Virus record (IMG/VR): IMGVR_UViG_3300024260_000002
Span: 117,623-181,622 of that record
Origin: a virus
DNA length: 64,000 nucleotides
Reading direction: 5' to 3' (one strand)
The notes beneath the pieces are model-generated. The model was not told the origin of the DNA. It was given only the letters and a program-made list of their open reading frames with translations, and did not search any database. This document shows positions 6,125 through 62,474 of this stretch, one piece after another (position 1 is the stretch's first letter; each line of letters opens with the position of its first letter). A program made the translations under genes and the position numbers.

Positions 6125-6634
6125 TTATTGTCCTTTTATTTTATCTTTTGCTATATTTTTTTCTAAAGAAGAATTATAAACTTCAAGTATGTCAATTAAT
6201 TCTAGTTCGATTTGACCCAGAAGTTTGTAAACAACTGGAGTACTAATTGTAAATATTAATTCATTTAGTACATTTAGATATTGTGAGTAATGAGATAGAT
6301 TTGCAATTAAATCCATATTCTCAGCACTTGTATCGTTCTTTATATTATCTTGAAGAATATCTATCTTTCCAGATAAATCAATAAGCTTATCATATAAAGT
6401 GAACTGAAGAAATTTATCTTCAGTTCCTTCTAATTCATATGTAAACAGTTCTTCTTCTGTTGGCTGAACTTCTTGACCTTCTTCTTCTTCAGGTGCATCT
6501 TCCGCCGATTCTTCAGGTGCATCTTCCGCTGATGCATCTAATTCATCGTCTGAATTTAGTTCTTCAGCCTCTAACAGTAACAACAAAGGAAGATTAACCT
6601 CTTCCAATATTAGTCTCTGATTATAATTTAACAT
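6125..6634 (-). CDS. Acidic protein with capsid-targeting-like leader
   Basis: A 169-residue, very acidic protein. It starts MLNYNQRLILEE, matching the leader repeated in this window (L-I-L-E near residue 10). Residues ~28-60 are almost all Asp/Glu/Ala/Ser, with SAEDAPEE present twice (the coding DNA repeats tcttcaggtgcatcttccgc). The C-terminal half is helical. Acidic, helical proteins with a protease-cleavable start are typical of T4-type prohead core components, and the gene lies next to the portal gene, from which it is separated by a homing endonuclease. A head-core or internal protein is inferred. Confidence 0.5.
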   Translation of the reverse strand: MLNYNQRLILEEVNLPLLLLLEAEELNSDDELDASAEDAPEESAEDAPEEEEGQEVQPTEEELFTYELEGTEDKFLQFTLYDKLIDLSGKIDILQDNIKNDTSAENMDLIANLSHYSQYLNVLNELIFTISTPVVYKLLGQIELELIDILEVYNSSLEKNIAKDKIKGQ

Positions 6635-6670
6635 TAATCATCCTTTCTTGTTATTTATTTTATATCTAGT

Positions 6671-6678
6671 ATTTGTTA
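6671..6678 (-). promoter_or_regulatory. Late-type promoter motif TAACAAAT
   Basis: The minus strand reads TAACAAATACTAGATATAAA, 37 bases upstream of ATG 6634. The same TAACAAAT core lies before many late operons in this window, usually just after a hairpin. Promoter function is inferred from recurrence. Confidence 0.45.
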
Positions 6679-6696
6679 GAGACCTAAGTCCCTAAC
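6675..6696 (-). terminator. Hairpin after homing endonuclease
   Basis: The minus strand reads GTTAGGGAC-TTAG-GTCTCTAAC, a 9-base-pair stem with one G-U pair. Its 3' arm runs directly into the TAACAAAT motif. It probably ends the endonuclease transcript; the U-tract is weak. Confidence 0.4.
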
Positions 6697-6698
6697 GT

Positions 6699-16078: not shown

Positions 16079-16113
16079 ACAAGAGTATCTAATCGGCTAC
16101 ATGCCGATTAGAT
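16079..16113 (-). terminator. Terminator at end of terminase gene
   Basis: The minus strand has an 11-base-pair stem (ATCTAATCGGC / GCCGATTAGAT) with a 5-base loop, followed by ACTCTTGTC. The stem includes the terminase stop codon. The trailing CTTGT element recurs after other hairpins here. Confidence 0.65.
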
Positions 16114-18067
16114 AATTACTCATATCATATTCTTTTAGATCAGGTTTCTTTTTATCACTTTTAAAATGAAAACCATCTTCGTTCTCAACCCATTCATCTG
16201 ATTCTTGACCAGTACTACCGCCCGTGCCAATTGTAACACTGATAAAGTCCATTATAGTTTCAGGAGTTAAAGCAAATGCTTGTATCTCACCATCTACTTG
16301 AAGTTCACCACTCTTAATCATTAACTTACGAACATATAAACAGAAGTTATAAGCCATAACAACATCATCATGTTGTCCACGCATTGCTTCAATACGTCCA
16401 TTAGCTTTTTGTTCTAGGTTTCGTAGTTCGTCAATAAGCATATCACTATGAAATAAATCAGGACGACCATTAACTTGATTCATCAGTTCATTAAACATCT
16501 GATCACGTTTACCATTACCCATTTTACCAGCATTTGAAGTATATAAACCAAATGTATAATCACCAGTTGGTTCACCTTTACCATTTTTTACTTCTTCTTG
16601 ATATAAATATGCTTCATAATCGAAGTCATCAACCAATGGATCATTATAAAGTAATTCCTCAACTGTTTCTTTACCAATCGAGTTTCTCTCAATAATGACT
16701 CTTAGTGTTTCTTCGTTAACATTATATAGTTTACTTAGTCCTTGGACCGCAGCTTTTACAAGAGCAGCAAATCTTTTAACAACAGAGAATTTACCTTTCC
16801 ATGCACCTACTTCTTGACCTGAAACAGCATGTACTAAACTCAAAGCACTATAATCCGAATTGATACCAGCACTCATAGCGGTATCCACACCAAGTAAATA
16901 TATTTCACCTGGAATTAATTCAGAGAACATTTCAAGTTTATGACCAAAAGGCAATTGCATCTCATGACTAGATTTTTTAGGAACAAGCTTACATATAACA
17001 TCATCAGAGAATATAGATGTACTTGAACCAAGAAATACTAAGTCAAGTTCCTGATTAATCTTACGTTGATTAAAGTTCAGTTCCTTACATTGCTTATTAT
17101 ACCAATCTTGATCTCTATGTGTATCACTCCAAAGAATTTTCATACTAATAAATGCATTCTTTTCAGGATCATCCATAGTAACTTCATAACCATCATAAAG
17201 AACTTTATTCTCATAATCATATATATCATCAAACTTAACTGATCTTTGTAATATGCCGTAGAACCAGTTACCACCAGCACCATTAGGTGTTGATACCGCA
17301 ATCATACAAGTAGGATAACCAAATTTCTTAGCAAATATTTTCGCTGTTGAAATAGATGGTTGCATTGCGGAATAAACAATATCCATATGTTTAATAAAGG
17401 CTGCCTCATCCAGGATTATAATACTTCCTGAAAGTCCACGACCAAGAGTATCAGGATCAATACTACCAGAAACGAACATAGTATCAAACATACTCTTATT
17501 CTTTAAGTGAAAGAATGTAGTTCTTTCGGCTTTAGAAGCATTTGGTACTCTCATCCAATTAGGAAGCTTACTCATCATTTCTTTTAAACGAGCAACTGCA
17601 TCCTTACCACGATTACTATCTAATGTTAGGAATGCTATCTTAATACCAGGAAAGAATACCATACAATACAATGCATATAGTAATGCTAGTGTAGTCTTAC
17701 CAATCTGGCGAGAACTAATAAACGCGACATTATCTTGCAATTCAAATAATTTAAAAAGTAATCTAAATTTATTTGAACTTTGCCATTGTTCTGAACTTCC
17801 CATGTGAATAAATCCACCAGTTACGGGAGTATATGCATATTTCTCTACCCAATACAACGGAGACATTTTACATTTCATCCATTCTATCATTTGCTCATTA
17901 GCCGACATATTTTTATTGTAATGATCTTCTCCTAAATACTCAGGAACCTTTATTACAGGTTTTTCTTTTACAATAATACCTTCCACTACCTCAACTTCTG
18001 AAGCTGGGTCTTTCCATATATCATTATCTTCTTCTAAAGACTCTTCATCGTTTAGTATTTCTGACAT
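16097..18067 (-). CDS. Terminase large subunit (T4 gp17-like)
   Basis: A 656-residue DNA-packaging ATPase-nuclease. The ATPase domain shows a Walker A-type ISSRQIGKTT (residues ~117-126), a following FFPGIKIAFLT strand and Walker B SIIILDEAAF (~215-224). The coupling motif VSTPNG comes later. The nuclease domain has GVDTAMSAGINSDYSALSL (RNase-H fold, first Asp) and GQHDDVVMAYNF near the end. Length and domain order match T4 gp17. The start has a clear AAAAAGGA ribosome-binding site. The terminator stem overlaps its stop. Upstream lies a palindromic promoter-like module at 18086-18237. Confidence 0.93.
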   Translation of the reverse strand: MSEILNDEESLEEDNDIWKDPASEVEVVEGIIVKEKPVIKVPEYLGEDHYNKNMSANEQMIEWMKCKMSPLYWVEKYAYTPVTGGFIHMGSSEQWQSSNKFRLLFKLFELQDNVAFISSRQIGKTTLALLYALYCMVFFPGIKIAFLTLDSNRGKDAVARLKEMMSKLPNWMRVPNASKAERTTFFHLKNKSMFDTMFVSGSIDPDTLGRGLSGSIIILDEAAFIKHMDIVYSAMQPSISTAKIFAKKFGYPTCMIAVSTPNGAGGNWFYGILQRSVKFDDIYDYENKVLYDGYEVTMDDPEKNAFISMKILWSDTHRDQDWYNKQCKELNFNQRKINQELDLVFLGSSTSIFSDDVICKLVPKKSSHEMQLPFGHKLEMFSELIPGEIYLLGVDTAMSAGINSDYSALSLVHAVSGQEVGAWKGKFSVVKRFAALVKAAVQGLSKLYNVNEETLRVIIERNSIGKETVEELLYNDPLVDDFDYEAYLYQEEVKNGKGEPTGDYTFGLYTSNAGKMGNGKRDQMFNELMNQVNGRPDLFHSDMLIDELRNLEQKANGRIEAMRGQHDDVVMAYNFCLYVRKLMIKSGELQVDGEIQAFALTPETIMDFISVTIGTGGSTGQESDEWVENEDGFHFKSDKKKPDLKEYDMSNYLIGM

Positions 18068-18085: not shown

Positions 18086-18237
18086 CGATCTTTCAAGATC
18101 ATAAAAATAGTTACCATAGAAATAAAATAAAATATTTCTATGGTAATAATTTCTATCTTTAAAGATCGCACTTTTTTTTGAATAATGATCTTTAAAGATA
18201 GAAATTATTTCTATCTTTAAAGATCGTTTTATTTATT
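18086..18237. repeat. Palindromic regulatory module with TTACCATAGAAAT pair
   Basis: Non-coding. TTACCATAGAAAT (18111-18123) faces its exact reverse complement (18134-18146) across ten A/T bases. The pair is flanked by repeated GATCTTTAAAGATC-like dyads and ATTTCTATCTTTAAAGATCG blocks. Modules of the same design occur at 33119-33270 and 58590-58720. It may contain promoters in both directions plus hairpin terminators; the function is unknown. Confidence 0.55.
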
Positions 18238-18496
18238 TGGGTATAGTACTAAGTAATCGTCTAGCGGCAAATGCTTCTTCTGCATCAGATATATCACCAC
18301 CAGATGCGTCTTGCATGCTTTTGATTCTTGCACTATTCAAAGCAGCTGTACCTTTAGCTTCAATATTGCCATTTGCTATTCTATTCCAGTCAGCATCAGA
18401 TAATGTACCACCTGAGTGAAATGCAGCCATCCTTGCTTTATTGGCGGCCATAATATTACTTTCTAATATTAATCCTTTATTGATTTTATAAATCAT
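18233..18496 (-). CDS. Small head-internal-type protein with targeting leader
   Basis: An 87-residue protein starting MIYKINKGLILES. It has the shared leader with L-I-L-E at residues 9-12, a probable prohead-protease cleavage site before Ser-13. The remainder is Ala-rich and helical with SDADWNRIANG and SDAEEAFAARR repeats. It lies 1 base downstream of the 335-residue gene. It is probably packaged inside the capsid (inference from the leader). Confidence 0.55.
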   Translation of the reverse strand: MIYKINKGLILESNIMAANKARMAAFHSGGTLSDADWNRIANGNIEAKGTAALNSARIKSMQDASGGDISDAEEAFAARRLLSTIPK

Positions 18497-19881: not shown

Positions 19882-20565
19882 TTATCCTTTTGTTATATTA
19901 TAGTTTGGTCCATAACTTCTAGGACCATTACTATTACTTAAGTGCATACCTAATTTATTAATAGTTGAAGATCTTAAATCTTTTGACCCTTGACCTAATA
20001 CAGGTCTTGTACCATCTTCACGTTTTACTTTTGTTTCATAATGAGAAGATAATTCTACAGGATCTTTTGTTATAGCATTACCTTTTCTGTAGTTCTCACG
20101 ATGATGAGATATTTCAGAAATTTCAGAAATTTCAGAAATTTCAGAAATTTCATTAATTCTTTCAATTTTTGCTCTATCTCCTGGTTGTCTTCCTGCTGCA
20201 TGACTTGAACCAGATTGTGTAACATCATTTAAATCTTGTACACCTTTTGATTTAGAAACATCAGTTGGTAGAATTTTACCAGCATTAAGATTTTTCTTAG
20301 CGGCTTGTATACCTGTAGGATGAGAAGACATTATAAGTGCACCTTCTGTTAAAGCATCTTTATCAATTTCTTCTTTTTTTACCGGAGCACTTACCCCTGG
20401 CATATTACTAGGATCTTTTAATTTCATAGAGGTAATATCTTTATCATGTTCTACTCTGAACTGTTTTGTTGCCCGTAATTGTCGCTCTAAATTAATTTTT
20501 AAATCATTTTTTATAAGGTTAATTAATTCAGATTCTAAAATATACTTACGAATTTGAATTTTCAT
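19882..20565 (-). CDS. Leader-bearing protein with Glu-Ile-Ser repeat
   Basis: A 227-residue protein. The leader is MKIQIRKYILESE (I-L-E at residues 9-11). The body is charged and disordered-looking, rich in Lys, Ser and Gly. A perfect EIS repeat (residues ~139-152) is encoded by tandem 9-base units (atttcagaa) at 20110-20152, which could expand or contract without breaking the frame. It is probably an internal head protein ejected with the DNA; no catalytic motif is visible. Confidence 0.5.
   Translation of the reverse strand: MKIQIRKYILESELINLIKNDLKINLERQLRATKQFRVEHDKDITSMKLKDPSNMPGVSAPVKKEEIDKDALTEGALIMSSHPTGIQAAKKNLNAGKILPTDVSKSKGVQDLNDVTQSGSSHAAGRQPGDRAKIERINEISEISEISEISEISHHRENYRKGNAITKDPVELSSHYETKVKREDGTRPVLGQGSKDLRSSTINKLGMHLSNSNGPRSYGPNYNITKG
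20110..20152. repeat. 9-base tandem repeat inside a gene
   Basis: Four to five copies of atttcagaa encode the Glu-Ile-Ser repeats of the 19882-20565 protein. Units are multiples of three bases, so slippage would change length but not frame. Confidence 0.8.
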
Positions 20566-22863: not shown

Positions 22864-23049
22864 TTAATCCTCGTACTTAACAGAACTATCGTCGTCTTTA
22901 GGATATTTATCTTTTAACTGATCTTTGCCTATTCCACCATAAGTTGCAATAGGAGTAGCTGATCCAGACATAGCACCTGCGGATGAAACACCACCAACCA
23001 TACCATCCATTTCCTGGATAATCTTTTTCTTTTCAATCGTTATTTTCAT
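22864..23049 (-). CDS. Small leader-bearing protein
   Basis: A 61-residue protein. MKITIEKKKIIQEMDG is a variant of the shared leader with I-I-Q-E, still I-x-E. A Gly/Ala/Ser-rich stretch (MVGGVSSAGAMSGS) and a charged tail follow. It is probably a processed internal head protein. A late-type promoter and a terminator lie upstream. Confidence 0.5.
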   Translation of the reverse strand: MKITIEKKKIIQEMDGMVGGVSSAGAMSGSATPIATYGGIGKDQLKDKYPKDDDSSVKYED

Positions 23050-23756: not shown

Positions 23757-24167
23757 TTATTTACCCTGTGTTTTAACACGAAACTCGTTTCGTCTTTCTG
23801 GTTTATATCTACCATTTTTTAGATCATTTTTCATAGCCATAGATTTAGAAGTATCTTTAATCGCTTTATCTTCTGATGAGCTAATACCTAACGGAGTGGG
23901 ACTTTTCTCAATCTTATCTAATTTATTAAGCATGTCACGATTCGGCATTCTTATCTCTTCAAGTAAAGATGCTTCAAAAAGTTCACGCATTTGAATTTGA
24001 ATACTTTCCATAAGTCCATCATCAACAAGCATCTTACGAATTTGCATTGTTGATTCATTAATCATAATTTTACCAAGAAGAGTTTCCTCTTCTGTTAATG
24101 AACTTTCCTCTAGAATCTCTAGAGAGTACTTCATACGAATGTTTTCTAATATTAAATCTAATTTCAT
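23757..24167 (-). CDS. Leader-bearing paralogue, MKLDLILEN family member 1
   Basis: A 136-residue protein. The start MKLDLILENIRMKYSLEILEE has two L-x-L/I-x-E sites. Residues ~33-50 (GKIMINESTMQIRKMLVDDG) are nearly the same in the proteins at 27076-27456 and 30319-30951, defining a paralogous family of three. The C-terminal tail is charged and lacks the Ala/Gly repeats of the third copy. It is probably processed and packaged within the head. Confidence 0.55.
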   Translation of the reverse strand: MKLDLILENIRMKYSLEILEESSLTEEETLLGKIMINESTMQIRKMLVDDGLMESIQIQMRELFEASLLEEIRMPNRDMLNKLDKIEKSPTPLGISSSEDKAIKDTSKSMAMKNDLKNGRYKPERRNEFRVKTQGK

Positions 24168-24169: not shown

Positions 24170-24511
24170 CTAACCCTTTGTTCCAGCAATTGATTCATAC
24201 ATTGAATCAGTATCATAATTATGTCTCTGTATAATAGCCACACCTTTATCAAGTACTTTATTACCAGTATATGCTAATCCAGCAGCCCCCGCCGCAGCCA
24301 TACCAGGAATCAAAACTCCCTCTTCTAAAGGCTTATCAGCACTCTTCTGAGCATTCTTTTCCATTCCAGCTAAATTCTTTAAAGTTGTTGGATGATTTGG
24401 ACCAAGTCTATCATTTTGTTTAATAGTTGCTTCTGTTACTTTTTCATTCATTAACATAGTGCTGCTAGCACTAGCTTCTAAAATTAATCTTTTATCTAAT
24501 TTATATATCAT
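24170..24511 (-). CDS. Leader-bearing protein with glycine-zipper segment
   Basis: A 113-residue protein. MIYKLDKRLILEA is the canonical leader. Residues ~68-95 (LIPGMAAAGAAGLAYTG) form a hydrophobic Ala/Gly segment able to insert into a membrane. Two bases separate it from the next gene. Packaging and ejection are inferred. Confidence 0.52.
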   Translation of the reverse strand: MIYKLDKRLILEASASSTMLMNEKVTEATIKQNDRLGPNHPTTLKNLAGMEKNAQKSADKPLEEGVLIPGMAAAGAAGLAYTGNKVLDKGVAIIQRHNYDTDSMYESIAGTKG

Positions 24512-24521: not shown

Positions 24522-24713
24522 TTATGTTAAAGTATAAGCAGTTGCTACTAAAGCTCCTATACCAGCAGCTGCTGGTATAATACTGCCATCTTTTTTTTCT
24601 AGTATATCGTTTTCTTTTTTCAATAATCGATGATCAACATTTATTGTCATTCCTGGATGATTCTTACGCGTAGCATCCATATATTCTAATATTAATTTTT
24701 TATTTAGTTTCAT
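24522..24713 (-). CDS. Leader-bearing small membrane-active-type protein
   Basis: A 63-residue protein. ATG 24713 (MKLNKKLILEYM) is chosen because AAGGA stands just upstream and it restores the canonical leader. The C-terminal segment IIPAAAGIGALVATAYTLT is a short hydrophobic glycine-zipper-like helix. Its ribosome-binding site and start codon lie inside the 3' end of the homing endonuclease at 24700-25716. Confidence 0.52.
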   Translation of the reverse strand: MKLNKKLILEYMDATRKNHPGMTINVDHRLLKKENDILEKKDGSIIPAAAGIGALVATAYTLT

Positions 24714-26565: not shown

Positions 26566-26595
26566 ACAAGAAAATATAAGCCGAAGCTTATATTA
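26566..26595 (-). terminator. Rho-independent terminator with UUCG loop
   Basis: The minus strand reads AATATAAGC-TTCG-GCTTATATT followed by TTCTTGTGC. It is a strong stem with a stable tetraloop, overlapping the stop of the 26593 gene. Confidence 0.75.
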
Positions 26596-27066
26596 TTTTC
26601 TAAATTGGTTTCGTCCACTAAATAGTTTACCTATACCATATTCGATACCAGGAGCAACTGCAGTATTTATAGCAGCACCTACTGGAGCACCAATAAGAGC
26701 ACCTACTGGACCACCCGCCATGAATCCTGCTACTGTACCAACACTAGCACCATTAATACCTTTATTAATCATATTACTAGGTGTATAAGCATCATCTACA
26801 GTTAACTTACTTTTTGGTTCTGCTGATGTTGCTCCAAGAGCTCCAGCACGTCCTAAAAGAGTTCCTGCAACAGGATGTCCAAGTTTATCACCTACTTCAT
26901 AACCAGCAGTCGCTTGACCAATCTTACTTGCCAATGTACCAACAACTGGAATTCCAGCAGTTGCATTTAAAAGTCTTTCAGATGTTTTGTTTGTGTCATC
27001 AAATATTTGTCTTTGATTACCAACAAAACTTTCAAGTATAAGACTTTTAGACAATTCAATTTTCAT
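26593..27066 (-). CDS. Leader-bearing glycine-zipper protein
   Basis: A 157-residue protein. MKIELSKSLILESF is the canonical leader. Residues ~105-150 form a long glycine-zipper stretch (GTVAGFMAGGPVGALIGAPV, AAINTAVAPG) that should insert into or associate with membranes. A shorter zipper-like stretch lies near residues 35-75. Probably processed, packaged and ejected to form part of a conduit. Inference. Confidence 0.55.
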   Translation of the reverse strand: MKIELSKSLILESFVGNQRQIFDDTNKTSERLLNATAGIPVVGTLASKIGQATAGYEVGDKLGHPVAGTLLGRAGALGATSAEPKSKLTVDDAYTPSNMINKGINGASVGTVAGFMAGGPVGALIGAPVGAAINTAVAPGIEYGIGKLFSGRNQFRK

Positions 27067-27075: not shown

Positions 27076-27456
27076 TTATTTTTCTCCGTCTTTACCAGCT
27101 TCAGAACTTGTGTTCCAACCAGCATCAACTTTTTCAAAGAATTTCTTCTTATCTTCATCAGGCATTGCCTCTACAGAATCGTATTTACACTTCGCAAGCT
27201 CAGCTTTAAAATATTTATCATACGCTGCACCTTTAGCAGATTCCTCTAATAAAGTATTTGTCCAAGCTTCTTCTAATACATTCTGAACGTTGGTAATAGT
27301 ACCTTCTTCAACAAGTATCTTACGAATAGTTGATAATGATTCATTGATTAAAATTTTACCTTTAAGTAAATCAATTTCTGATACACTTTCACCTTCTTCT
27401 AGAAGTCCCAATGTGTATTTGTTTTTTACATTTTCTAATATTAAATCTAATTTCAT
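27076..27456 (-). CDS. Leader-bearing paralogue, MKLDLILEN family member 2
   Basis: A 126-residue protein. MKLDLILENVKNKYTLGLLEE, followed by GKILINESLSTIRKILVEEG, aligns with the proteins at 23757 and 30319. Several L-x-E sites lie in the first 25 residues. The C-terminal half is charged and helical (YDKYFKAELAKCKYD) and lacks the membrane segment. It is probably a processed head protein. Confidence 0.55.
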   Translation of the reverse strand: MKLDLILENVKNKYTLGLLEEGESVSEIDLLKGKILINESLSTIRKILVEEGTITNVQNVLEEAWTNTLLEESAKGAAYDKYFKAELAKCKYDSVEAMPDEDKKKFFEKVDAGWNTSSEAGKDGEK

Positions 27457-27470: not shown

Positions 27471-27845
27471 TTAATTTAAAGCACCTGCTGCTAATACACC
27501 AGTACCTAATGCAGCAGCTCCGCCTAATATATCAGCAGATCTATTTTTATTGTTTAATAAATCAGTTGTAGCTCTATCAGCTACTTTATCAATTTGTGGT
27601 GAATATTTATTTGCTAAATATGCACCACCTATTGCACCTGCAACTGGTCCAGCAATTAACGCTGCACTAGGAGCGGCAACACCTGCACCAACTAATCCAG
27701 CTACGCCACCTAATCCTAATTTAGTACCAGCAAGAGTACCAACCGTAGTATTAAATCCTTTATTAAAAGGAGTGTTCATTTCTTTTGGAGTAGCATATTG
27801 AAAATTTTCAAGTATAAGACGCTTATCTAATTGTACTTTCATCAT
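27471..27845 (-). CDS. Leader-bearing glycine-zipper protein
   Basis: A 124-residue protein. (M)MKVQLDKRLILENF is the leader. Residues ~30-80 are Gly/Ala-rich (GTLAGTKLGLGGVAGLVGAG, AALIAGPVAGAIGGAYLA), and a second zipper ends the protein (ILGGAAALGTGVLAAGALN). This makes two probable membrane-spanning hairpins. Two consecutive ATGs precede KVQL; either could be used with the AGGAAAC site. Confidence 0.55.
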   Translation of the reverse strand: MMKVQLDKRLILENFQYATPKEMNTPFNKGFNTTVGTLAGTKLGLGGVAGLVGAGVAAPSAALIAGPVAGAIGGAYLANKYSPQIDKVADRATTDLLNNKNRSADILGGAAALGTGVLAAGALN

Positions 27846-27850: not shown

Positions 27851-28381
27851 CTATTTAATTATATTTTTAAAATTTTGAAAAACTCTAGAGGGAGAACTAT
27901 CTATTTTCATCGGTTGAGAATTATTACTAAAATATGGTAGATCTTTAGCACTACCTGGTTGATATTTTGTACCAAATAATAAAGTACTTGGATTTAAGTT
28001 TTCATTACTTGCATCATATATCTTTTGTGCTTCATGTTGAGGTAATTTACTAACATACTCTTTTGCATCTTTTAAAGCATTTGCTTCATGATTCTTAAAA
28101 GGAGTTAATGCATTAACGACTTCTTTAGGGTGATTATCTGAATGGTTTTGTGGAAACATATACTGATGTAGTCTACGAGGCTCATGACTTGAAATATGTG
28201 TTCCACGACTATCCATATCCAATAGTTGTGCTCCTATATTTTTATTATCAAATGTTTTTTGAGCATTTGAAATAACATCATTTTCAGCAGCAGTTCTAGC
28301 AGCAGAGTACTCAAATCCATCTAAACCATCAAGTCCTTCAAATTCTTCAAGTATCTTATGTTTATCTAATTGTACTTTCAT
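27851..28381 (-). CDS. Leader-bearing protein
   Basis: A 176-residue protein. The leader is MKVQLDKHKILEEFEG. The body is charged and His-rich (HISSHEPRRLHQYMFPQNHS, NHEANALKDAKEY) without membrane segments, unlike its neighbours. The gene overlaps the upstream stop (TAATG). It is probably a soluble packaged protein; no catalytic signature is clear. Confidence 0.52.
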   Translation of the reverse strand: MKVQLDKHKILEEFEGLDGLDGFEYSAARTAAENDVISNAQKTFDNKNIGAQLLDMDSRGTHISSHEPRRLHQYMFPQNHSDNHPKEVVNALTPFKNHEANALKDAKEYVSKLPQHEAQKIYDASNENLNPSTLLFGTKYQPGSAKDLPYFSNNSQPMKIDSSPSRVFQNFKNIIK

Positions 28382-28593
28382 TATGCTGCACCTGGATCTA
28401 AAGTTTTAACTAATTCACCACTAAGTTTATTTATACCATAAGCTGCGCCACCTAGAATTCCAACAGGAATTGCTACGTTTGCTACTTTACTTGTAGTACT
28501 TTGAGGAATACCAGCTGCTCTTTGAGCTTGTACTTGTTGCATGTGATGATAATTCGCTTCTAGAATTAAAGCTTTGTCTAATTTTACTTTCAT
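28381..28593 (-). CDS. Leader-bearing small membrane-type protein
   Basis: A 70-residue protein. The leader MKVKLDKALILEAN is followed by a Gln-rich turn and a hydrophobic segment VANVAIPVGILGGAAYGI. TAATG overlap links it to the next gene. Probably a processed and ejected membrane-active peptide (inference). Confidence 0.52.
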   Translation of the reverse strand: MKVKLDKALILEANYHHMQQVQAQRAAGIPQSTTSKVANVAIPVGILGGAAYGINKLSGELVKTLDPGAA

Positions 28594-28608: not shown

Positions 28609-29253
28609 TTATATTTTTTTATATTTTTTTACTATATTTTTTAACTTGATAGCATTATTTCGTTTTGTTATAATTCTTTTAGGAACTATTTGAGGAGATG
28701 TTAATGGTGTTTTTCTTTTTATATCACCAGGTTGTACTAAAGGTTTTGATCTATTATCCATTGCTGTTTGAGTAGGCTTATTTAAATCTCTTGGCTCCCT
28801 TATAGGCTCTTTTTTATAAAAAGCATTATTCTTTTTTTGAGGACCATGTTGCATACCAGTATCTACACCGACAGGAGGAGGATTTTCTTTTCTCTTCTCA
28901 TCAGCTACCCATTGCTTAGTTTTAGCAACACCTTTATTTAAAGCACTTATAGTATTTGTAGCACCTTTTGAAACAGCAGCTTTATTATTTAAAGCTAATG
29001 CTCCTGCACCTAAAGCTGTCCCAGCCATTAAACCTTTAGTTGCAACATTTTCCCAATCTGTCCCAGGAGCTTCTGTAACATGATTTACTGTATGAATATT
29101 TGTAACGGGTCTATTTATAGGAGTGTCATCTGATAATGCGTCTGTAGCTAAACCACCGGCCACTAAACCACCAATACCAGCTAAATATTTTCCAGAATGT
29201 TTCTTTAAATGTTCTGAAAAATTTTCAAGTATAACATCTTTATGTAATTTCAT
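28609..29253 (-). CDS. Leader-bearing protein with two membrane segments and basic tail
   Basis: A 214-residue protein. MKLHKDVILENF is the leader (I-L-E). Hydrophobic segments are KYLAGIGGLVAGGLATDAL (~27-45) and GLMAGTALGAGALAL (~75-90). The C-terminal ~100 residues are Lys/Arg/Pro-rich (GDIKRKTPLTSPQIVPKRII) and could bind DNA. It is a close paralogue of the disrupted gene at 29581-30227, sharing GVDTGM-x-HGPQK. Confidence 0.55.
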   Translation of the reverse strand: MKLHKDVILENFSEHLKKHSGKYLAGIGGLVAGGLATDALSDDTPINRPVTNIHTVNHVTEAPGTDWENVATKGLMAGTALGAGALALNNKAAVSKGATNTISALNKGVAKTKQWVADEKRKENPPPVGVDTGMQHGPQKKNNAFYKKEPIREPRDLNKPTQTAMDNRSKPLVQPGDIKRKTPLTSPQIVPKRIITKRNNAIKLKNIVKKYKKI

Positions 29254-29346: not shown

Positions 29347-29534
29347 TTACTGATTTACAAGACCATCAACATATCTACCAGCGTCTTGAACGCCTTGTTT
29401 AATTGTTTGTCAGCATCTTCATACGCATTAATAATATCATCCGAGTAGTGACCGGCGAGCGCTCCAATACCTGCAACTGTAAGTATTTTACTATAATTTT
29501 CCAGTATTAATTTCTTATCTGTTTGAACTATCAT
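29347..29534 (-). pseudogene. Frameshifted leader-bearing minigene
   Basis: ATG 29534 opens MIVQTDKKLILENY (canonical leader) and a short GIGALAGH segment, giving 59 residues to a stop at 29355. Shifting frame near 29410 instead yields KQGVQDAGRYVDGLVNQ-stop (29347). This matches the C-terminus KQGVQGAENYLNSLTQQ of the 30319-30951 protein. No ribosome-binding site precedes the start. I read it as a shortened, decayed family member, although a functional 59-residue peptide cannot be excluded. Confidence 0.5.
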
Positions 29535-29580: not shown

Positions 29581-30227
29581 TTAATTTATTAATATTTTTC
29601 GCTTATTTATAACTCGTTGAGGAACAATCGCTGGGCCAGTTAAAGGTTTTTTGCGCTTTATATCACCTGGTTGACTAAGAGAATTTAATGAAACATCTTT
29701 AGCCACTGAGGTTGGTTCATTTAAATTTCTATGTAAAGGTTTAACCTTTTTGTAAAAAGTGTTATTTCGTTTTTGAGGCCCATGAGTCATTCCTGTATCA
29801 ACTCCAATCGGAGTAGGGTTTTCTTTACGTTTTTCTGAAGCAACCCATTTTTTAGTTGAATCAACTCCTCTATTTATTGCAGATACTGCAGTATTTATAC
29901 CACCTTGAGTTGCTTGACCCATAGAAGTATTTATTTTATCTGCAGCATTGATAGTATTGGTTGCAACCTTTGCAGCACCAGATGACACATCTTTAATACC
30001 ATTAACATTTTTAGATATCAATCCAGCTACACCAAGACCGGCTCCAGTCAATAAACTTTTGTTTGCAATATCATTCCAATCTGTATTACTAGGAGATTCT
30101 TTAATATTATTAGTTATATGTTGAGTAGGTTCTTCTTCGCCATCAAAAGCATTAGTCAATCCAACACCAGCTAAAATACCCGCACCAGCTAAATATTTTC
30201 CAGAATTAAATTTTTATTAATTATCAT
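29581..30227 (-). pseudogene. Leader-bearing paralogue disrupted by frameshift
   Basis: ATG 30227 with AAAGGAAATTATA upstream encodes MIINKNLILENI and then a stop (30189). In the frame shifted by one, the sequence continues as NSGKYLAGAGILAGVGL and a 192-codon frame that parallels the intact paralogue at 28609-29253 (SGKYLAGIGGLVAGG, GVDTGM-x-HGPQK, QPGDIKRK). The word ATTCTGGAAAA encodes both I-L-E-N and the N-S-G-K region, so a deletion between two copies would explain the lost ~12 codons. The downstream frame has only a TTG start at 30159 without a ribosome-binding site. Confidence 0.65.
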
Positions 30228-30318: not shown

Positions 30319-30951
30319 TTATTGTTGTGTTAAACTATTTAAATAGTTTTCTGCGCCTTGAACACCTTGCTTAAGATTACCACTTATAGTGTCACCAACA
30401 TGACCAAGTTTATCACTTAGCTCACTAGCACCTGATTTAAATTTATTAGTATAGTCAGCTACTTTATCAATACTAGCATCTTGCATAGTTGTTGTATTAT
30501 TAGCAACACCAGTAGCATTATTAGCAACACCAGTAGCATTATTAGCAACACCAGCAGCATTATTAGCAACACCAGTAGTGTTATTAGCAACACCAGCAGC
30601 GTTAGCTACAATTCCTTGGTGAGCATTAGCAACCGATGCCGCATTATCAGCAATACCAGAATTTGTATGATCTACAAATTGTTTACCAGCATCATAAGCC
30701 ATTTTACCACCAGCACCAACACCAGCTAAAGCACCAGCACCAACTAAACGTTGACCCCAACCTTCTTCTAGAAGATCACGAACACCTTGCATAACTCCTT
30801 CTTCAACAAGCATTTTACGAATTTGCATTGTTGATTCATTAATCATGATTTTACCTTTAAGTAAATCTTTTTCAGACATACCCTCGGCTTCTTCAAGAAG
30901 ACCTAAAGAATAACGATTACGAACATTTTCTAAGATTAAATCTAATTTCAT
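30319..30951 (-). CDS. Leader-bearing paralogue, MKLDLILEN family member 3, with 7-residue repeats
   Basis: A 210-residue protein. MKLDLILENVRNRYSLGLLEE and GKIMINESTMQIRKMLVEEG match the two shorter paralogues. A glycine-zipper (VGAGALAGVGAGGKMAYDAG, ~72-91) follows. Residues ~100-150 are tandem V-A-N-N-A/T-T/A-G repeats encoded by 21-base DNA units (30490-30600). The end KQGVQGAENYLNSLTQQ is shared with the decayed minigene at 29347. A processed, packaged membrane-interacting protein is inferred. Confidence 0.57.
   Translation of the reverse strand: MKLDLILENVRNRYSLGLLEEAEGMSEKDLLKGKIMINESTMQIRKMLVEEGVMQGVRDLLEEGWGQRLVGAGALAGVGAGGKMAYDAGKQFVDHTNSGIADNAASVANAHQGIVANAAGVANNTTGVANNAAGVANNATGVANNATGVANNTTTMQDASIDKVADYTNKFKSGASELSDKLGHVGDTISGNLKQGVQGAENYLNSLTQQ
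30490..30600. repeat. 21-base tandem repeats encoding VANNxTG
   Basis: About five imperfect copies of ttattagcaacaccagtagc lie in the coding sequence. The unit length is a multiple of three. Confidence 0.8.
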
Positions 30952-37273: not shown

Positions 37274-37321
37274 ATTATTTCCTTTGTTCTGCTCTTAACA
37301 TTTTTTCAGAACTTGTCAAGT

Positions 37322-37417
37322 TTAAAGGGATTTTGGTTTACCAGTTTTCACTCGCTCCTCCACACCTAATCTATCTGCTTCTAGAAGAAGCTCAGTTTTA
37401 TTTATTATTAATTTCAT
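37322..37417 (-). CDS. Leader-only minigene
   Basis: A 31-residue protein, MKLIINKTELLLEADRLG followed by EERVKTGKPKSL. It carries the shared leader (L-L-L-E) and almost nothing else. The ribosome-binding site AAGGCATAAT lies in the end of the homing endonuclease at 37419. It could be a truncated leader-bearing gene or a very small packaged peptide. Confidence 0.45.
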   Translation of the reverse strand: MKLIINKTELLLEADRLGVEERVKTGKPKSL

Positions 37418-37418
37418 A

Positions 37419-51469: not shown

Positions 51470-51901
51470 TTACCAACTTGCGAATCCACCAGCAGCAGGA
51501 GCAGCAGGAGCAGTCGTTGATGCAGATTTAGTCGTTGATGATTGAACCGGTTCAGCAGCAGGAGATACTGAAATATCAACAGCAGTTATTAAATCTTCTG
51601 TTTCCGGCGTAAGTGTTTTAAAATCAGGTTTAAGCATAAACTCTTTATAAATATTAGTCTTAGCAAATAATTTAATTCCAAGATTTACAATACTTTCTGC
51701 ATGTAATCCACTTGCTTCTGTAAGAATCTTAAATGCTTCATTATCAAGACTTAGCGTGATTTGAGTTGCTGTTTCATTTCCCGCTGTTGTTGTCATTGCC
51801 GCTTCATTACTATATTGCTGAGGTTGCTGAGGCTGCTGAGGTTGAGGAGCCACATAAGGTGGCTGCTGAGGAGTCGAGGCTCCTAAATTATTAATATCCA
51901 T
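51470..51901 (-). CDS. ParR-like ribbon-helix-helix protein
   Basis: A 143-residue protein. Residues ~1-35 are Pro/Gln-rich. Residues ~47-85 (TQITLSLDNEAFKILTEASG, LHAESIVNLGIKLF) have a strand-helix-helix pattern like ribbon-helix-helix proteins. The C-terminus is Ala/Ser/Thr-rich and disordered. It follows the actin-like ParM gene (interrupted by two homing endonucleases), the normal place for the ParR adaptor. Assignment rests on pattern and context; a single-strand-binding or T4-like accessory role is possible. Confidence 0.45.
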   Translation of the reverse strand: MDINNLGASTPQQPPYVAPQPQQPQQPQQYSNEAAMTTTAGNETATQITLSLDNEAFKILTEASGLHAESIVNLGIKLFAKTNIYKEFMLKPDFKTLTPETEDLITAVDISVSPAAEPVQSSTTKSASTTAPAAPAAGGFASW

Positions 51902-52596
51902 TCTAATTCCTTATCTATTTTTTGATCATATCTAATTCTATATAATTTTATATTATTGTCTATACAATATTGAGTTTTAATTTTATCTCGAATTTTAATT
52001 TTTTCAAATTCAAGTAAACCACCAAATTTTGAGGATGGTTTAAAATGTTGAATACCATCATATTCTATACAAATATTTAATTCTGGTAAATAAAAATCAA
52101 AAGGCAATTTTCTTTTAGTGTTTAAATTACAACAATCTTTAAATTTATACTGAATTAAATAATCTATCTTTAATTCATCTAATTTTTTTATTATTGCTAA
52201 CTCACCTTTAGATGAACTACATTTTGTGCAGCCACATGATTGTATATGATTTTTTGGTTTTTGAAGAAATTCACCATGAATAGGACATATAATAATAACA
52301 TTAATTGTGCCTTTTAAATATATAGTTTTTGAATAATTGTATTTATTATTATGAATAATATTGCTTTTAATGATAAACTCCTCAGTTGTTAATACACCAC
52401 CACATTTTGGACATCCGCATTTTCTATTAATATGTACAGTTGGTTTTTGGAGAAATTCACCGTGTATTTTACAAATTATTATACTTTTTATATGTGCGGA
52501 TTTGTATATAAATTTTGTATAATCATATACATAATTATGTATATGATTTGCTTTATTTATAACATCTTCTTGTTTTAACGTATTTTTGTTAGCCAA
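51883..52596 (-). CDS. PD-(D/E)XK homing endonuclease with treble-clef repeats
   Basis: A 237-residue protein. Two Cys/His modules (CKIHGEF...CGCPKC and CPIHGEF...CGCTKC) are followed by the nuclease core LPFDFYLPELNICIEYDGIQ, similar to 36368-37273. The start is TTG 52596, directly after an in-frame TAA within a copy of the ParM 3' end. The last codons (DKELEWILII-stop) overlap the ribosome-binding site and start of the ParR-like gene. Confidence 0.7.
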   Translation of the reverse strand: MANKNTLKQEDVINKANHIHNYVYDYTKFIYKSAHIKSIIICKIHGEFLQKPTVHINRKCGCPKCGGVLTTEEFIIKSNIIHNNKYNYSKTIYLKGTINVIIICPIHGEFLQKPKNHIQSCGCTKCSSSKGELAIIKKLDELKIDYLIQYKFKDCCNLNTKRKLPFDFYLPELNICIEYDGIQHFKPSSKFGGLLEFEKIKIRDKIKTQYCIDNNIKLYRIRYDQKIDKELEWILII

Positions 52597-52608
52597 TTAA
52601 AGAGTACC
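52581..52608. repeat. 28-base copy of ParM gene 3' end
   Basis: An exact direct repeat of 53580-53607, containing the codons for Y-S-L-I-G-stop of the ParM-like gene, here stranded between two homing endonuclease genes. Confidence 0.9.
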
Positions 52609-52616
52609 ATAATTTT

Positions 52617-52643
52617 TAATATTCATTTTAATTCCTTATCTAT
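52617..52643. repeat. Copy of ParR-like gene start region
   Basis: 25 of 27 bases match 51892-51918, the ribosome-binding site and first codons of the ParR-like gene (MDINN becomes MNIKN). Confidence 0.8.
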
Positions 52644-53504
52644 GATCATATCCAATTCTAATATATCTATATTAAATATTTCAGTATTTCCAAAACTTTT
52701 TTGAAATACTTTATCATCTGTTAAATATTTTTTATATTTTTTTAGTATTTTCTGTTCTTCTTCGTACGCATATTGACCGATAATAAAATGAGTTTCTTCT
52801 ACAATACGAATTCTTTTTCTTTTTTCATCTCTGAATCTGTGTCTAACATCATTATTTGTTATTCCAATTTTATAATATTTTTCATCTATGCATATATAGT
52901 AAAGAATTGCATGTTTATTCTGATCAAAACCATGTTTATTCACTTTAAATTTTATATTCAAATCTCTAATTTTTTTATTAGCTGTTGTTTGATTACAATT
53001 AAAAAACTCTTTGAACGCTTGTACATTAAAAAATAAAGTATCTTTGTCTATAAATTTATTATTGATAAATTTTTTATTATAAAATTTATCAATATTTGTA
53101 ATATGATCTAAACTTTTATTATTATCAATTGCAAACTTTCTAAATTCTTTTGTATTCATATAACTTGATGTTCCATACTTTTTCATCATTGTTTTCTGAC
53201 CATTTTTAATAGCTGATGGCGTAGCGCATTTTTTCCCACAGTAATTTGACCATTTATATGATGATCTATAAAATTTTTTTTGATTATTACAATTCTTTTC
53301 ACAACATTTAAAATCTAACATGTTATCTTTAACACTTTTTATTCGAGTGGATAAATCAGAAGCTTCATCTAAAACCTGTATATAATCTTTTGTTAATTCA
53401 TATACATATTTTATAGCTTTTTTTACTTCTTCTGATTTATTGTTTCTAAGTCCTTTTAACATTGTACCATTTTCATAAAATAAACATTTTATATTTTTAT
53501 CCAT
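52623..53504 (-). CDS. GIY-YIG-type homing endonuclease
   Basis: A 293-residue protein. N-terminal finger CCEKNCNNQ...YCGKKC (~68-95), NUMOD-like MKKYGTSSYM, then ILYYICIDEKYYKIGITNND, RFRDEKRK and AYEEEQKI of the GIY-YIG/T5orf172 fold, much like 24700-25716. It is bracketed by duplicated pieces of the ParM end and ParR start, so it inserted at the same junction as the neighbouring endonuclease. Confidence 0.7.
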   Translation of the reverse strand: MDKNIKCLFYENGTMLKGLRNNKSEEVKKAIKYVYELTKDYIQVLDEASDLSTRIKSVKDNMLDFKCCEKNCNNQKKFYRSSYKWSNYCGKKCATPSAIKNGQKTMMKKYGTSSYMNTKEFRKFAIDNNKSLDHITNIDKFYNKKFINNKFIDKDTLFFNVQAFKEFFNCNQTTANKKIRDLNIKFKVNKHGFDQNKHAILYYICIDEKYYKIGITNNDVRHRFRDEKRKRIRIVEETHFIIGQYAYEEEQKILKKYKKYLTDDKVFQKSFGNTEIFNIDILELDMIIDKELK

Positions 53505-53587: not shown

Positions 53588-54493
53588 TTAGCCAATTAAA
53601 GAGTACCCGTATACGTTACTGAATTCCTTCGGATCTGAATTATATACAGTGTTTGGTGGCATTGGAACATCTTGAATATAATAAGCTCCTCCTCCAGCAA
53701 TTAAAACTTTCTCAGCCATCATTAAAGTTTTCTTTTCTGAAACAAGTACCGAATTCATAAGTTTTTGTACAAATTTATTTTTTAAATCCGCAATTACTTT
53801 AGGGATATCTTCTTGTGGTGTTCCACCTAAAGAAAATTCTTTATCCATGAAAATTTTTAAAGCTTCTTGCTCTGAAAACGGCATACCATAAGCACTTTCC
53901 AAATAATTAGAGAAAGTTTTCATAATTGAAACAACGCCATGTCCAGGAAACCCTTTCATTTTAGTTTGAATAGCTTCACCTCTTTCATAATAAAGAAAGT
54001 TAATTGTTCTATAACCAATATCAATAACACATAAAGATTTTGGTGGAGTTTGAGTTAATTCATTTTGAACAATATAAGCATTATATGCACCTGAACCTTG
54101 AGGTCCAACAACATTAACACCAGTAGCTACTGTTTCATTATTAACTTTTAAGAAATTTAAACGTTCTTTAAATTCTTCGCGCTTAGACCAATCAGTTAAA
54201 GCTAGACCAGTATTTAAAGAAATATCTCCAGTAATTCCAAGCTTCTTAAAAATATGGAATACAATTAATGGAGCAAATTTAATTAGGAACTTGTAATCGG
54301 TTGTTGTGAAAGCCTCATCCGTAGCCAGTTCACCAACATAGTATTTTTCACCTTCAAAGTCATAAATAGCAGACTCACCAAATTCGATACCACAGTCATT
54401 AGCAAAGCTAATAGCAGTTGGTACTTTATAATATTGTGAATTGAACATAATTTTACTTGAACTATATCCAATATCGATTGAAATTTTATTCAT
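53588..54493 (-). CDS. ParM-like actin family protein
   Basis: A 301-residue protein. Phosphate-1 motif KISIDIGYSSSKIMF, phosphate-2 motif LCVIDIGYRTINFLYY and adenosine motif VLIAGGGAYYIQD indicate an actin/Hsp70-fold ATPase of the ParM/StbA/Alp type. Such proteins form filaments that move plasmid or phage DNA. The ParR-like gene lies downstream. Its start codon and AAAAGGA site are inside the end of the upstream homing endonuclease. In a jumbo phage it could position DNA or an intracellular compartment, or segregate a plasmid-like state. Confidence 0.72.
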   Translation of the reverse strand: MNKISIDIGYSSSKIMFNSQYYKVPTAISFANDCGIEFGESAIYDFEGEKYYVGELATDEAFTTTDYKFLIKFAPLIVFHIFKKLGITGDISLNTGLALTDWSKREEFKERLNFLKVNNETVATGVNVVGPQGSGAYNAYIVQNELTQTPPKSLCVIDIGYRTINFLYYERGEAIQTKMKGFPGHGVVSIMKTFSNYLESAYGMPFSEQEALKIFMDKEFSLGGTPQEDIPKVIADLKNKFVQKLMNSVLVSEKKTLMMAEKVLIAGGGAYYIQDVPMPPNTVYNSDPKEFSNVYGYSLIG

Positions 54494-55632
54494 TTATTTT
54501 TCCTTTTATATTTTAAATATCCTGAATTATATATTGGATATTTTGTATTTTTTATTAATTCCGGTTCTAATATTTCAACCAAGTCATAATCATTCTCTAA
54601 CCATAAACCATTATCATAATCTAAATCAATTATTATTTCATCCGTTTCACTACAGTCAAATACTATTTCATCATTTAATGAATTTACAATATCTATAACT
54701 AAAGATTCGTTAAGATCTTCATAAATATGAAATAGTTGAATACCTAATTCTTTACACATTAATGATTTTTTTTGATGTCTAAATTTATCAGAATTCTCTT
54801 GATGTCTATGCCAATACATACCGTTATATTCAATAGCTACTTTTAATTTTTCTATATAAATATCTAATTCATATGGTTGTATTATCTTTTTTGAATTTAT
54901 AATTAATTTATGGTTAATTTGTCGTCTTATATAAATTTCTTTTTCTGATACACCAATTTTTGAAGTTACTATATCAAAATATTTTAATGTTAAATAAGCG
55001 GTTGAATTTGATACATTAAAATATTTTGTAAACTTAAATATTAAAAATTTATCATTTTTAATAAAATTATCAATAATAAATTGTTTATTTTGATTTATTA
55101 CAAAACTATTAGAGTTTTCAACATAGTCTATTTTATCTTTAAATTCTTTAATTTGTAATGCATGTGAATGACCATATCTATTTTTCATAGTTAAATGCAT
55201 TTTATCATTAAATTTTTTAACTTGCATAGCATTTTTTGAATTGTATTTTTCTAACATTGTGCAAATTGATTTATCTTTAAATTCTTTAACTTTTAAAGGA
55301 TTATCAAAACCATATTGTTTAATACAAGTATTTTTTCTTTTTTTAATTGTTTTTGATGAAGATGATGCGCATTTATTAGAACAATAATTATTTTTTTTAT
55401 TAGACCCTTTATTAATGGATACTTTATTATTGCAATTTTCATGTTTACAAATTTTATCTTCATGCTTAAAAGGATATAATAATAAAGCATATTTTATATT
55501 ACACTGTTCTCTCGCGTAAACAGAATCTTTAAAAATTATATCTAAGATATTTATAATTTCTGAGTCTTTGTTTAAAAAAAGATTTCTTTTTAACATAGTA
55601 CCTTTTTCATTATATAATATCTTAAAATTCAT
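54490..55632 (-). CDS. Vsr/EDxHD-like homing endonuclease
   Basis: A 380-residue protein. N-terminal finger CKHENCNNK...YCSNKC, three NUMOD-like segments (IKQYGFDNPLK, MLEKYNSKNAMQ, MKNRYGHSHALQ), and nuclease core YELDIYIEKLKVAIEYNGMYWHR. The 16 bases attcatttatttatcc at its 5' junction (55627-55642) recur with one change at its 3' junction (54488-54503), where they provide the ParM start region. Last codons KYKRKNK-stop cover the ParM ribosome-binding site. Confidence 0.72.
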   Translation of the reverse strand: MNFKILYNEKGTMLKRNLFLNKDSEIINILDIIFKDSVYAREQCNIKYALLLYPFKHEDKICKHENCNNKVSINKGSNKKNNYCSNKCASSSSKTIKKRKNTCIKQYGFDNPLKVKEFKDKSICTMLEKYNSKNAMQVKKFNDKMHLTMKNRYGHSHALQIKEFKDKIDYVENSNSFVINQNKQFIIDNFIKNDKFLIFKFTKYFNVSNSTAYLTLKYFDIVTSKIGVSEKEIYIRRQINHKLIINSKKIIQPYELDIYIEKLKVAIEYNGMYWHRHQENSDKFRHQKKSLMCKELGIQLFHIYEDLNESLVIDIVNSLNDEIVFDCSETDEIIIDLDYDNGLWLENDYDLVEILEPELIKNTKYPIYNSGYLKYKRKNK

Positions 55633-60813: not shown

Positions 60814-60827
60814 TTATAGTCCTTTGT

Positions 60828-61082
60828 TTATTTATCTTCTTCTACTGCTGCTTGTTCTTTAGTTGGAGCCGTATTAGGATGAGACCCTTTACGTTCAAGA
60901 GCTTTTAATTCATCTGTATCATAAATAGATGACATATATTCAGTATTAGTTCCTTCGAACTTCTCTTCTTTCTTTGCAACTCTTTCCATCTCAGCTTCTG
61001 GTCCTTTACGATCTTCTTGAGCTGCCATATTAATTTCTTTAAGTTTTTTAAGAACTGGATTCTTATCTATTTCTACTTTCAT
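60828..61082 (-). CDS. Small charged protein with degenerate leader
   Basis: An 84-residue protein starting MKVEIDKNPVLKKLKE. The beginning fits the shared leader (M-K-V-x-x-D-K) but the L-I-L-E is replaced; L-K-E at 14-16 is the only matching site. The body is highly charged. It overlaps the upstream stop (TAATG). Confidence 0.45.
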   Translation of the reverse strand: MKVEIDKNPVLKKLKEINMAAQEDRKGPEAEMERVAKKEEKFEGTNTEYMSSIYDTDELKALERKGSHPNTAPTKEQAAVEEDK

Positions 61083-61240
61083 TATTTACCCTTCTGATTT
61101 GCTTTGGTTCTATCTCTAGATGTTTTTAACATTCTATGTCTAGCGATAGTTTCTTTTGAAGCCTTTTCTTTTTTACCAATTCTGGATAAATTAGACTCAC
61201 TTAAATATTTTTCTTTATATACTTGTTGAAGTGTTTGCAT
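61082..61240 (-). CDS. Small basic protein
   Basis: A 52-residue protein (MQTLQQVYKEKYLSESNLSR, then Lys/Arg-rich). It overlaps the Acb1-like gene end by 1 base and the next gene start (TAATG). YLSES may be a weak leader site. Possibly nucleic-acid binding. Confidence 0.48.
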   Translation of the reverse strand: MQTLQQVYKEKYLSESNLSRIGKKEKASKETIARHRMLKTSRDRTKANQKGK

Positions 61241-61779
61241 TATTTCTTTTCCTTATTATCTTTATTGTCTTTATCATCTTTTAAAGAATCTTCGACCCAA
61301 TCTTCATTAAGTGGACTTATTCGTTCTTGAATGATTTCAATAGTATTACCAATAAATGGTTTAGTAAGATCTTTATTTTTTTTAAAGTCTAGATCAAAAC
61401 CTTTACAGTTATACATCAATGTAACATGAGCTGTGTAATTAGGATAATCCGTAGTTGCACCTGATTTAATAGCTCTTTGGAATTGAGTTTCACACCAAGG
61501 ACATTCTAAAACAACATGAAGATTCTTTCCTTCATCTGTATCAAAATGACCAAAGCCTTTTATCTTAATAAGCTTTGATATAGTATCTTCTGCTTTTCCA
61601 TCAACTTGTTTTGTTCCCTTAGATGTCTTTAGAAAAGGAACAGGTTTTGAAGAGTATGTTAATGTACAATGATATGCATCTGTAAAGTCTTTTTTAAGAC
61701 CAAAACTTTTTATTATACTATCTAATTTTTTATTACTTTCTTTCGAGAAAATAATGTCTGCGTAAGTACCTTGTGCCAT
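61240..61779 (-). CDS. acb1: Acb1-like 2H phosphoesterase (anti-CBASS)
   Basis: A 179-residue protein. Two H-x-T motifs, YHCTLTYSS and YTAHVTLMYN, are the 2H-phosphoesterase signature. Flanking segments GTYADIIFSKESNKKLDSII, KGFGHFD, LHVVLECP and TTDYPNY resemble T4 Acb1 (gene 57B), which cleaves the cyclic oligonucleotide signals of CBASS. A ~20-residue Lys/Asp tail (KDDKDNKDNKEKK) is additional. Activity on the host's own messenger is inferred. Confidence 0.72.
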   Translation of the reverse strand: MAQGTYADIIFSKESNKKLDSIIKSFGLKKDFTDAYHCTLTYSSKPVPFLKTSKGTKQVDGKAEDTISKLIKIKGFGHFDTDEGKNLHVVLECPWCETQFQRAIKSGATTDYPNYTAHVTLMYNCKGFDLDFKKNKDLTKPFIGNTIEIIQERISPLNEDWVEDSLKDDKDNKDNKEKK

Positions 61780-61802
61780 TTGATTCCTTTTTAATTATTA
61801 AC

Positions 61803-62474
61803 TTACATCGATTGTTTATCAAATTCTCTATCTCTAACTCTTGCAGTTAAAATATTAGGATTTGTATGATGCATCTTATTATATACTTTCTTTTGACCAT
61901 CAACATCACCGTCTAGAACAGAATCAAAATATCGCTTACCATTTCCATGACCAGCAAGTGAACCCATTGTTAAATTAGTTTGTTGTTGTCTTGATAATTG
62001 ATTAGCATCTTTATGAATTTTAGCATCATCTATCCAATCCATATTTCTAGCGATTTTAGGCATATCTCTATTGATTCGATTTATACCAGTAGTTACAGAA
62101 TCATTAGTATTTTGATATAATCCTTTCGCACTAGTAAAACCATTATCACCAACAGTCTTTCCTGAATTTTCAATGTTTCCAAGAGTCTTCATAAATCTAT
62201 GTGAATTATCTACAGATTTTTCATAAGGTAATCCAAAACGTTCAGATTGATCTCTAATGATTCTTAATGAATTTTTATTGAATTCATCATATTTTGATTT
62301 TAAAATATTAGAACCTTTTGTAGGTTCTTGATGCTGACCTAGAATCTTTTCATCTTGTAAATGATTATCTAATGATTCCCCATTATTTTCAATAGCTTCT
62401 TCATTAGATACACCATTTATTAAATCTTGTAAATAACTTTCAACTATTAAGTGTTTTTTGATTTTATAAATCAC
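61803..62474 (-). CDS. Leader-bearing transglycosylase-like protein
   Basis: A 223-residue protein. GTG 62474 starts MIYKIKKHLIVESY, the shared leader with I-V-E. Residues ~95-125 (GNIENSGKTVGDNGFTSAKG followed by LYQ) match the catalytic-Glu region of lysozyme/transglycosylase domains, which cut peptidoglycan glycan strands. The rest is helical. If the leader directs packaging, this enzyme would be ejected with the DNA to open the cell wall from within the virion. Confidence 0.58.
   Translation of the reverse strand: MIYKIKKHLIVESYLQDLINGVSNEEAIENNGESLDNHLQDEKILGQHQEPTKGSNILKSKYDEFNKNSLRIIRDQSERFGLPYEKSVDNSHRFMKTLGNIENSGKTVGDNGFTSAKGLYQNTNDSVTTGINRINRDMPKIARNMDWIDDAKIHKDANQLSRQQQTNLTMGSLAGHGNGKRYFDSVLDGDVDGQKKVYNKMHHTNPNILTARVRDREFDKQSM

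Follow-up and report, generated by a model that had tools for sequence, protein, structure and literature searches.

A 64-kb window (bases 117623-181622) in the 181.6-kb IMG/VR record of a large uncultured T4-like phage encodes 16 open reading frames and two remnants that begin with a common N-terminal leader. We consider it highly probable that this leader is a capsid-targeting sequence (CTS) of the T4 type that is carried by an enlarged set of proteins and written in a new sequence dialect. The short tag very probably loads the tagged proteins into the head, and some of them would later be injected with the DNA.

A Common Leader Among the Genes of the Window

Open reading frames were called on both strands, and the remainder of the record outside the window was included. 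The leader has the general form M-x(2-6)-(N/D)-K-x-L-I-L-E followed by N, S, E or A; upon alignment on the Glu residue, the consensus is (D/N)-K-x-L-I-L-E, then N, S, E, A or Y. All leader genes and remnants of the window are located on the minus strand (Table 1), the weakest variant being that of gene 22864. An earlier note on this DNA had listed 18 coordinates and had counted at least 16 genes or remnants with the leader; each coordinate was found to be the low end of a minus-strand reading frame or remnant carrying it, in agreement with that count. A longer version of gene 24522, starting with GTG at 24746, is unlikely, and the open reading frame at 29355 may represent a third remnant. A pseudogene, a sequencing error or a programmed shift are possible causes of the frame break in 29581-30227.

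To determine how often such leaders occur by chance, we counted a strict motif ([LIVM]3E with the Glu at residues 6-18) in 191 genes, using random windows from the protein bodies as the null. The motif was present in 15 of the 191 genes compared to an expected 2.3 +/- 1.4, and none of 1000 draws reached this number. The early half of the same genome contained a single borderline match among 60 genes. In the control phage T5 (100 kb) one match was observed vs. 1.3 expected, while T4 (100 kb) displayed a small excess (6 vs. 1.5). The loose (L/I)xE motif alone was only modestly enriched (43 observed vs. 31.6 expected) and, as it often occurs by chance, was discarded as evidence.

The earlier note had further described the bodies behind the leader as unrelated. 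This applies to most of them, but 28609 is a paralog of 29581 (48% over 176 aa), and the three proteins 23757, 27076 and 30319 have a long leader of about 55 residues in common, and about 65 N-terminal residues altogether. Searches of the cargo bodies against Pfam and PHROG gave no meaningful matches, no leader protein of the window had a PHROG match below 0.01, and 28609 and 27851 had no tblastn match in INPHARED. Apart from 61803, no homology of the cargo to known families was detected. A resemblance of the glycine zipper of 26593 to a microvirus DNA pilot protein was set aside as a weak match (E 0.04).

Table 1. Leader genes and associated features. Positions refer to the window unless marked "genome"; a slash marks the end of the leader at Glu. 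Cargo and core designations are predictions.
Position	Strand	Leader	LILE or variant	Description
6125..6634	-	MLNYNQRLILE/EV	LILE	Acidic protein, pI 4.1; second site LLLE at residue 22
16097..18067	-			Large terminase subunit, T4-like; PHROG_2, 8.5e-35
18233..18496	-	MIYKINKGLILE/S	LILE	Short-leader cargo; further (L/I)xE sites: none
19882..20565	-	MKIQIRKYILE/S	KYILE	Short-leader cargo; basic body
22864..23049	-	MKITIEKKKIIQE/M	KIIQE	Weak leader variant
23757..24167	-	MKLDLILE/N..ILEE..INES..	LILE	Long-leader protein; 8 more (L/I)xE sites, all by residue 71
24170..24511	-	MIYKLDKRLILE/A	LILE	Short-leader cargo
24522..24713	-	MKLNKKLILE/Y	LILE	Short-leader cargo; ATG start (internal ATG at 24713)
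26593..27066	-	MKIELSKSLILE/S	LILE	Short-leader glycine-zipper protein, pI 9.6
27076..27456	-	MKLDLILE/N..LLEE..INES..VEEG	LILE	Long-leader protein; 7 further sites by residue 72
27471..27845	-	MMKVQLDKRLILE/N	LILE	Short-leader glycine-zipper protein
27851..28381	-	MKVQLDKHKILE/E	HKILE	Short-leader cargo
28381..28593	-	MKVKLDKALILE/A	LILE	Short-leader glycine-zipper protein
28609..29253	-	MKLHKDVILE/N	DVILE	Short-leader protein; glycine zipper and basic C-terminal part, pI 10.2
29355..29534	-	MIVQTDKKLILE/N	LILE	Tagged 59-aa ORF without good ribosome-binding site
29581..30227	-	MIINKNLILE/N	LILE	28609 paralog; leader intact at 30227, frame broken before open body 29581-30190
30319..30951	-	MKLDLILE/N..LLEE..INES..VEEG	LILE	Long-leader protein with glycine-zipper/repeat body; (L/I)xE sites only in first 63 residues
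30962..31504	-	MNEYFAQTLAGVLEE/T..		Acidic candidate core protein, pI 4.1; 6 sites beyond first
37322..37417	-	MKLIINKTELLLE/A	ELLLE	31-aa leader remnant between two endonuclease-like genes
61803..62474	-	MIYKIKKHLIVE/S	HLIVE (GTG start)	Short-leader cargo; transglycosylase-like body
24700-25716, 36368-38555, 46225-46716, 51883-53504, 54490-55632				Endonuclease-like genes (by eye)
genome 63753-64514 (L004:6753-7514)	-			253-aa acidic protein; 12 (L/I)xE sites vs. 3.3 expected
genome 84722-86341		MNENLILE/N	LILE	Major capsid protein; PHROG_20655, 1.4e-6
genome 86419-87213				gp21-type prohead protease; PHROG_207 (head maturation protease), 2.7e-22

The Leader on the Major Capsid Protein and Its Protease

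Outside the window, the same record encodes a sheath protein, a candidate core protein and, adjoining each other, the major capsid protein (MCP) and a gp21-type prohead protease. Scanning the entire record with Pfam S77 returned nothing, and the control genomes were silent as well; the protease, whose S77 match is sub-threshold (8e-4), was located by reading of the open reading frames and by PHROGs. A four-sequence protease profile matched the structure of T4 gp21 (PDB 5jbl) at 1.2e-4, and an eight-sequence MCP profile matched the major structural protein in PDB 7x30 at 2e-11. The AlphaFold model of the MCP (pLDDT 53) was too poor for a fold search.

The MCP begins with the same leader, and additional L-x-E sites precede the conserved shell sequence, at residues 46-50 and 69-70. 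All eight aligned MCPs have L5-I6-x-E8-N9 without variation, and each of the ten MCPs inspected, among them fragments in Sulfurimonas and Chlorobiota MAGs, contained LI(L/M)EN. Similarly, the four aligned proteases all possess an I-x-E near residue 8 and a second site, LEE(S/N), ahead of the catalytic domain. The earlier note had anticipated that a search of the full genome and related phages would reveal a prohead protease and further tagged genes. Both were found: the protease is encoded beside the leader-bearing MCP and has an I-x-E variant of its own, and the relatives retain this gene order and possess their own tagged sets.

Tagged Genes in Related Phages

A tblastn search of INPHARED with the MCP gave no match, and relatives were therefore drawn from IMG/VR. 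The MCP recurs at about 50% identity on three contigs 227-281 kb long and on others measuring 37-167 kb, and five relatives (G001, G002, G003, G004 and G006) were dissected gene by gene. All five possess tagged genes of their own, and in G006 and G004 tagged genes are located between the protease and the MCP. A weight matrix built exclusively from the own genome and then applied to the relatives identified 16 genes in G006 vs. 1.7 expected (Poisson 6e-11). The signal was less pronounced in G001, G002 and G003, which have tags of differing sequence (in G003, e.g., IEKLLEET and IESLIEES). As a motif, (L/I)xE is weak; the tag enrichment in G002 and G003 is weak too.

Some of the proteins recur among the relatives. 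6125 has the homologs G001_155650, G006_98579 and G003_128548, the body of 26593 resembles G002_192536, and the PIATYG motif of 22864 was found again in the tagged G003_84136. The long leader (about 55 residues, DLILEN-LLEE-INE-EEG) occurs in G000 (three genes), G001 (three), G002, G003 and G006 (two), and is joined to differing bodies across genomes; conservation within its alignment was insufficient for a scan of the collection. Two MCP relatives (L143 and L144) are short contigs binned into Sulfurimonas and Chlorobiota MAGs, which may be taken as a hint to the host.

Two Groups of Tagged Proteins

The short-leader bodies contain fewer further (L/I)xE sites than expected, both in the own genome (9 observed vs. 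18.1 expected) and in G006 (20 vs. 27.6), although this depletion of the loose motif is mild (P about 0.015 and 0.08, respectively). Rich in such sites are the long leaders, the pro-regions of MCP and protease, and the acidic proteins 6125, 30962 and genome 63753-64514, the last of which is a candidate for the main prohead scaffold. This distribution fits a division into site-poor short-leader bodies, which would be protected cargo, and a site-rich group of propeptides and core proteins that would be degraded in maturation.

The same sites bear on the possibility that the tagged proteins are mostly components of the prohead core (scaffold), which would dock via the leader and be destroyed by the protease, so that little or nothing is ejected. 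6125, 30962, 23757 and 27076 have many (L/I)xE sites; the first two are strongly acidic, as T4 gp67 appears from its N-terminal half, and 30962 and its homologs adjoin a long-leader gene in three genomes (own, G003 and G006). 6125, 30962 and perhaps 23757 and 27076 look like core proteins destroyed in maturation and not like ejected cargo, 6125 being a probable prohead-core component. However, further sites are few or absent in most short-leader bodies, many of which have a basic pI (8-10) or a glycine zipper, and 61803 has homology to a domain found in podoviral internal virion proteins. Internal proteins (IPs) of T4-related phages are reported to be basic as well (PMC9026906). A core function for most of the set therefore appears rather improbable. 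The large set of ejected proteins proposed in the earlier note is retained with regard to its size, about 16 tagged members, but has to be corrected for the few that are core-like.

A Transglycosylase-Like Protein Among the Tagged Set

61803 has a tagged counterpart in G006 (33% identity), and both conserve ENSG, AxGLYQ and HHTNP. In tblastn searches, 61803 displayed homology to internal virion protein(s) at 3e-6 and 1e-5; the former match is to the C-terminus of HTVC203P gp47, which adjoins genes annotated as internal virion proteins. A weak match (9e-3) was to the C-terminus of an internal virion protein of Vibrio phage 1.204.O, the N-terminal part of which matches PHROG_3883 (internal virion protein) at 1.8e-30. 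A profile of three tagged homologs scored this Vibrio phage protein at 5e-7, with the search size set by hand (Z = 1e5). In addition, the G006 homolog matched the transglycosylase PHROG_4067 at 2.8e-4. In 61803, the Glu at residue 102 is a candidate for the catalytic residue.

By these matches, 61803 has a body with homology to the C-terminal domain of T7-like podoviral internal virion proteins, and we assign it as transglycosylase-like; as the AlphaFold model (pLDDT 33) was too poor for a fold search, this assignment is based on sequence. In T7, the ejected gp16 has a transglycosylase (PMC8954989). The homology of 61803 provides indirect evidence for ejection that is independent of the leader. 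In contrast to the T7-like proteins, 61803 stands on its own as a small protein and has a T4-style tag, and its phage is T4-like.

Other Possible Origins of the Leader

Glycine zippers are over-represented among the tagged genes in four of six genomes (Fisher P 0.007 in the own genome, 1e-4 in G001), and a conserved leader followed by a variable glycine-zipper core is the architecture known from double-glycine leaders. The leader might accordingly direct the secretion or maturation of bacteriocin-like proteins and be removed by the peptidase of an exporter. However, the leaders lack a Gly-Gly or Gly-Ala cleavage site and end in a gp21-type motif. The MCP has the tag as well, the prohead protease has an I-x-E variant of it, and several of the bodies are not membrane-like but soluble or basic, all of which renders this explanation very improbable.

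A feature at the level of the mRNA (a translation enhancer or late-gene 5' element) or a trace of recent duplication, for which the clear paralogs 28609/29581 and 23757/27076/30319 might speak, deserves hardly any credence, as the LILE codons vary freely, the tag terminates in Glu whatever the dialect and is missing from early genes, and relatives with MCPs only about 50% identical have retained it. The motif is encoded by TTA, CTA, CTT, TTG and CTG for Leu and ATA, ATT and ATC for Ile, indicating that selection acts on the protein and that the leader is not a DNA element.

Probable Capsid Targeting and Its Relation to Known Systems

The reading of the leader as a capsid-targeting signal, as put forward in the earlier note, gains support from the prohead protease, the leader on the MCP, the tagged sets of the relatives, the tags of T4 and the homology of 61803. 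Binding, cleavage, packaging and ejection of the tagged proteins are what we infer from these findings. The N-terminal 8-13 residues would bind the prohead core or the inner shell during head assembly, and the phage's own gp21-type protease would cut after the Glu of (L/I)-x-E, freeing the bodies inside the head. MCP and protease would be tagged because both are built into, and processed within, one and the same particle. The set would consist of surviving short-leader cargo (several glycine-zipper proteins and the transglycosylase-like protein), the long-leader family with its three members and a few acidic core proteins, which probably undergo degradation. The cargo probably exits with the DNA and may help to breach the host envelope or to protect the genome.

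In T4, gp21 cleaves after L/I-X-E, and ten N-terminal CTS residues of IPIII suffice for targeting (PMC9026906). The likeness to T4 that had been noted earlier, a short leader on internal proteins (..FIAE) cut after I/L-x-E, extends to gp21 (..LLIE), gp22 (..LIAE) and gp68; all of these T4 proteins possess N-terminal tags ending in (L/I)xE. IPI, IPII, IPIII and Alt also share with the present set the unrelated bodies behind a short (L/I)xE tag, the gp21-type protease and the large myovirus-type phage. However, the tag of IPII and IPIII is MKTYQEFIAE, whereas a conserved Lys and LILE are found here, and homology of tag or cargo to the T4 IPs was not found; with the own-genome matrix, the T4 IPIII tag scored -0.8 and that of gp22 7.0. 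T4 has three IPs, and at least ten are known across its relatives (PMC12373910), compared to about 16 tagged open reading frames in this one genome. The tag on the MCP and the glycine-zipper and transglycosylase-like cargo also differ from the T4 IP system. SPN3US and phiKZ are likewise large phages with many internal proteins, whose N-terminal propeptides are cut by the prohead protease gp245, but most of these propeptides comprise 111-254 residues and only two 20-24 (PMC10052503, PMC5694885), and the descriptions hold no common short tag across many genes. CTS-type systems as such are already known; what is new relative to the open-access literature is the dialect, the occurrence of the tag on the MCP, the number of tagged proteins, the long leader, and cargo of the glycine-zipper and transglycosylase-like kinds.

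More tentatively, these phages may form an undescribed T4-like lineage in which a portable tag, short (about 10 residues) or long (about 55), loads a fast-changing envelope-breaching kit of glycine-zipper membrane proteins and a T7-type transglycosylase. If so, a T7-like ejection apparatus would be delivered by a T4-like head. Under the main reading, the capsid-targeting logic of T4 is extended to a lineage whose MCP has no match in INPHARED, and the leader provides a computable rule for naming packaged proteins among anonymous genes, and with it a large natural set of candidate injected effectors. As the tag is also present on MCP and protease, comparison can serve to decipher the recognition code, and the tags could be tried for loading proteins into phage heads.

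Gene Context

The large terminase subunit is about 26% identical to its counterparts in cyanophages and other large phages. Endonuclease-like genes of zinc-finger or HNH style, identified by eye, are numerous among the structural genes. At 44263-45330 of the window, a protein with a PAS-like segment (TDIAGVITYANAEF), also recognized by eye, is unusual in a phage. Between genome positions 104553 and 117302 (L006, L007), the translations of a run of genes display CxxxCxxC-type radical-SAM motifs, a cluster that is likewise unusual for a phage.
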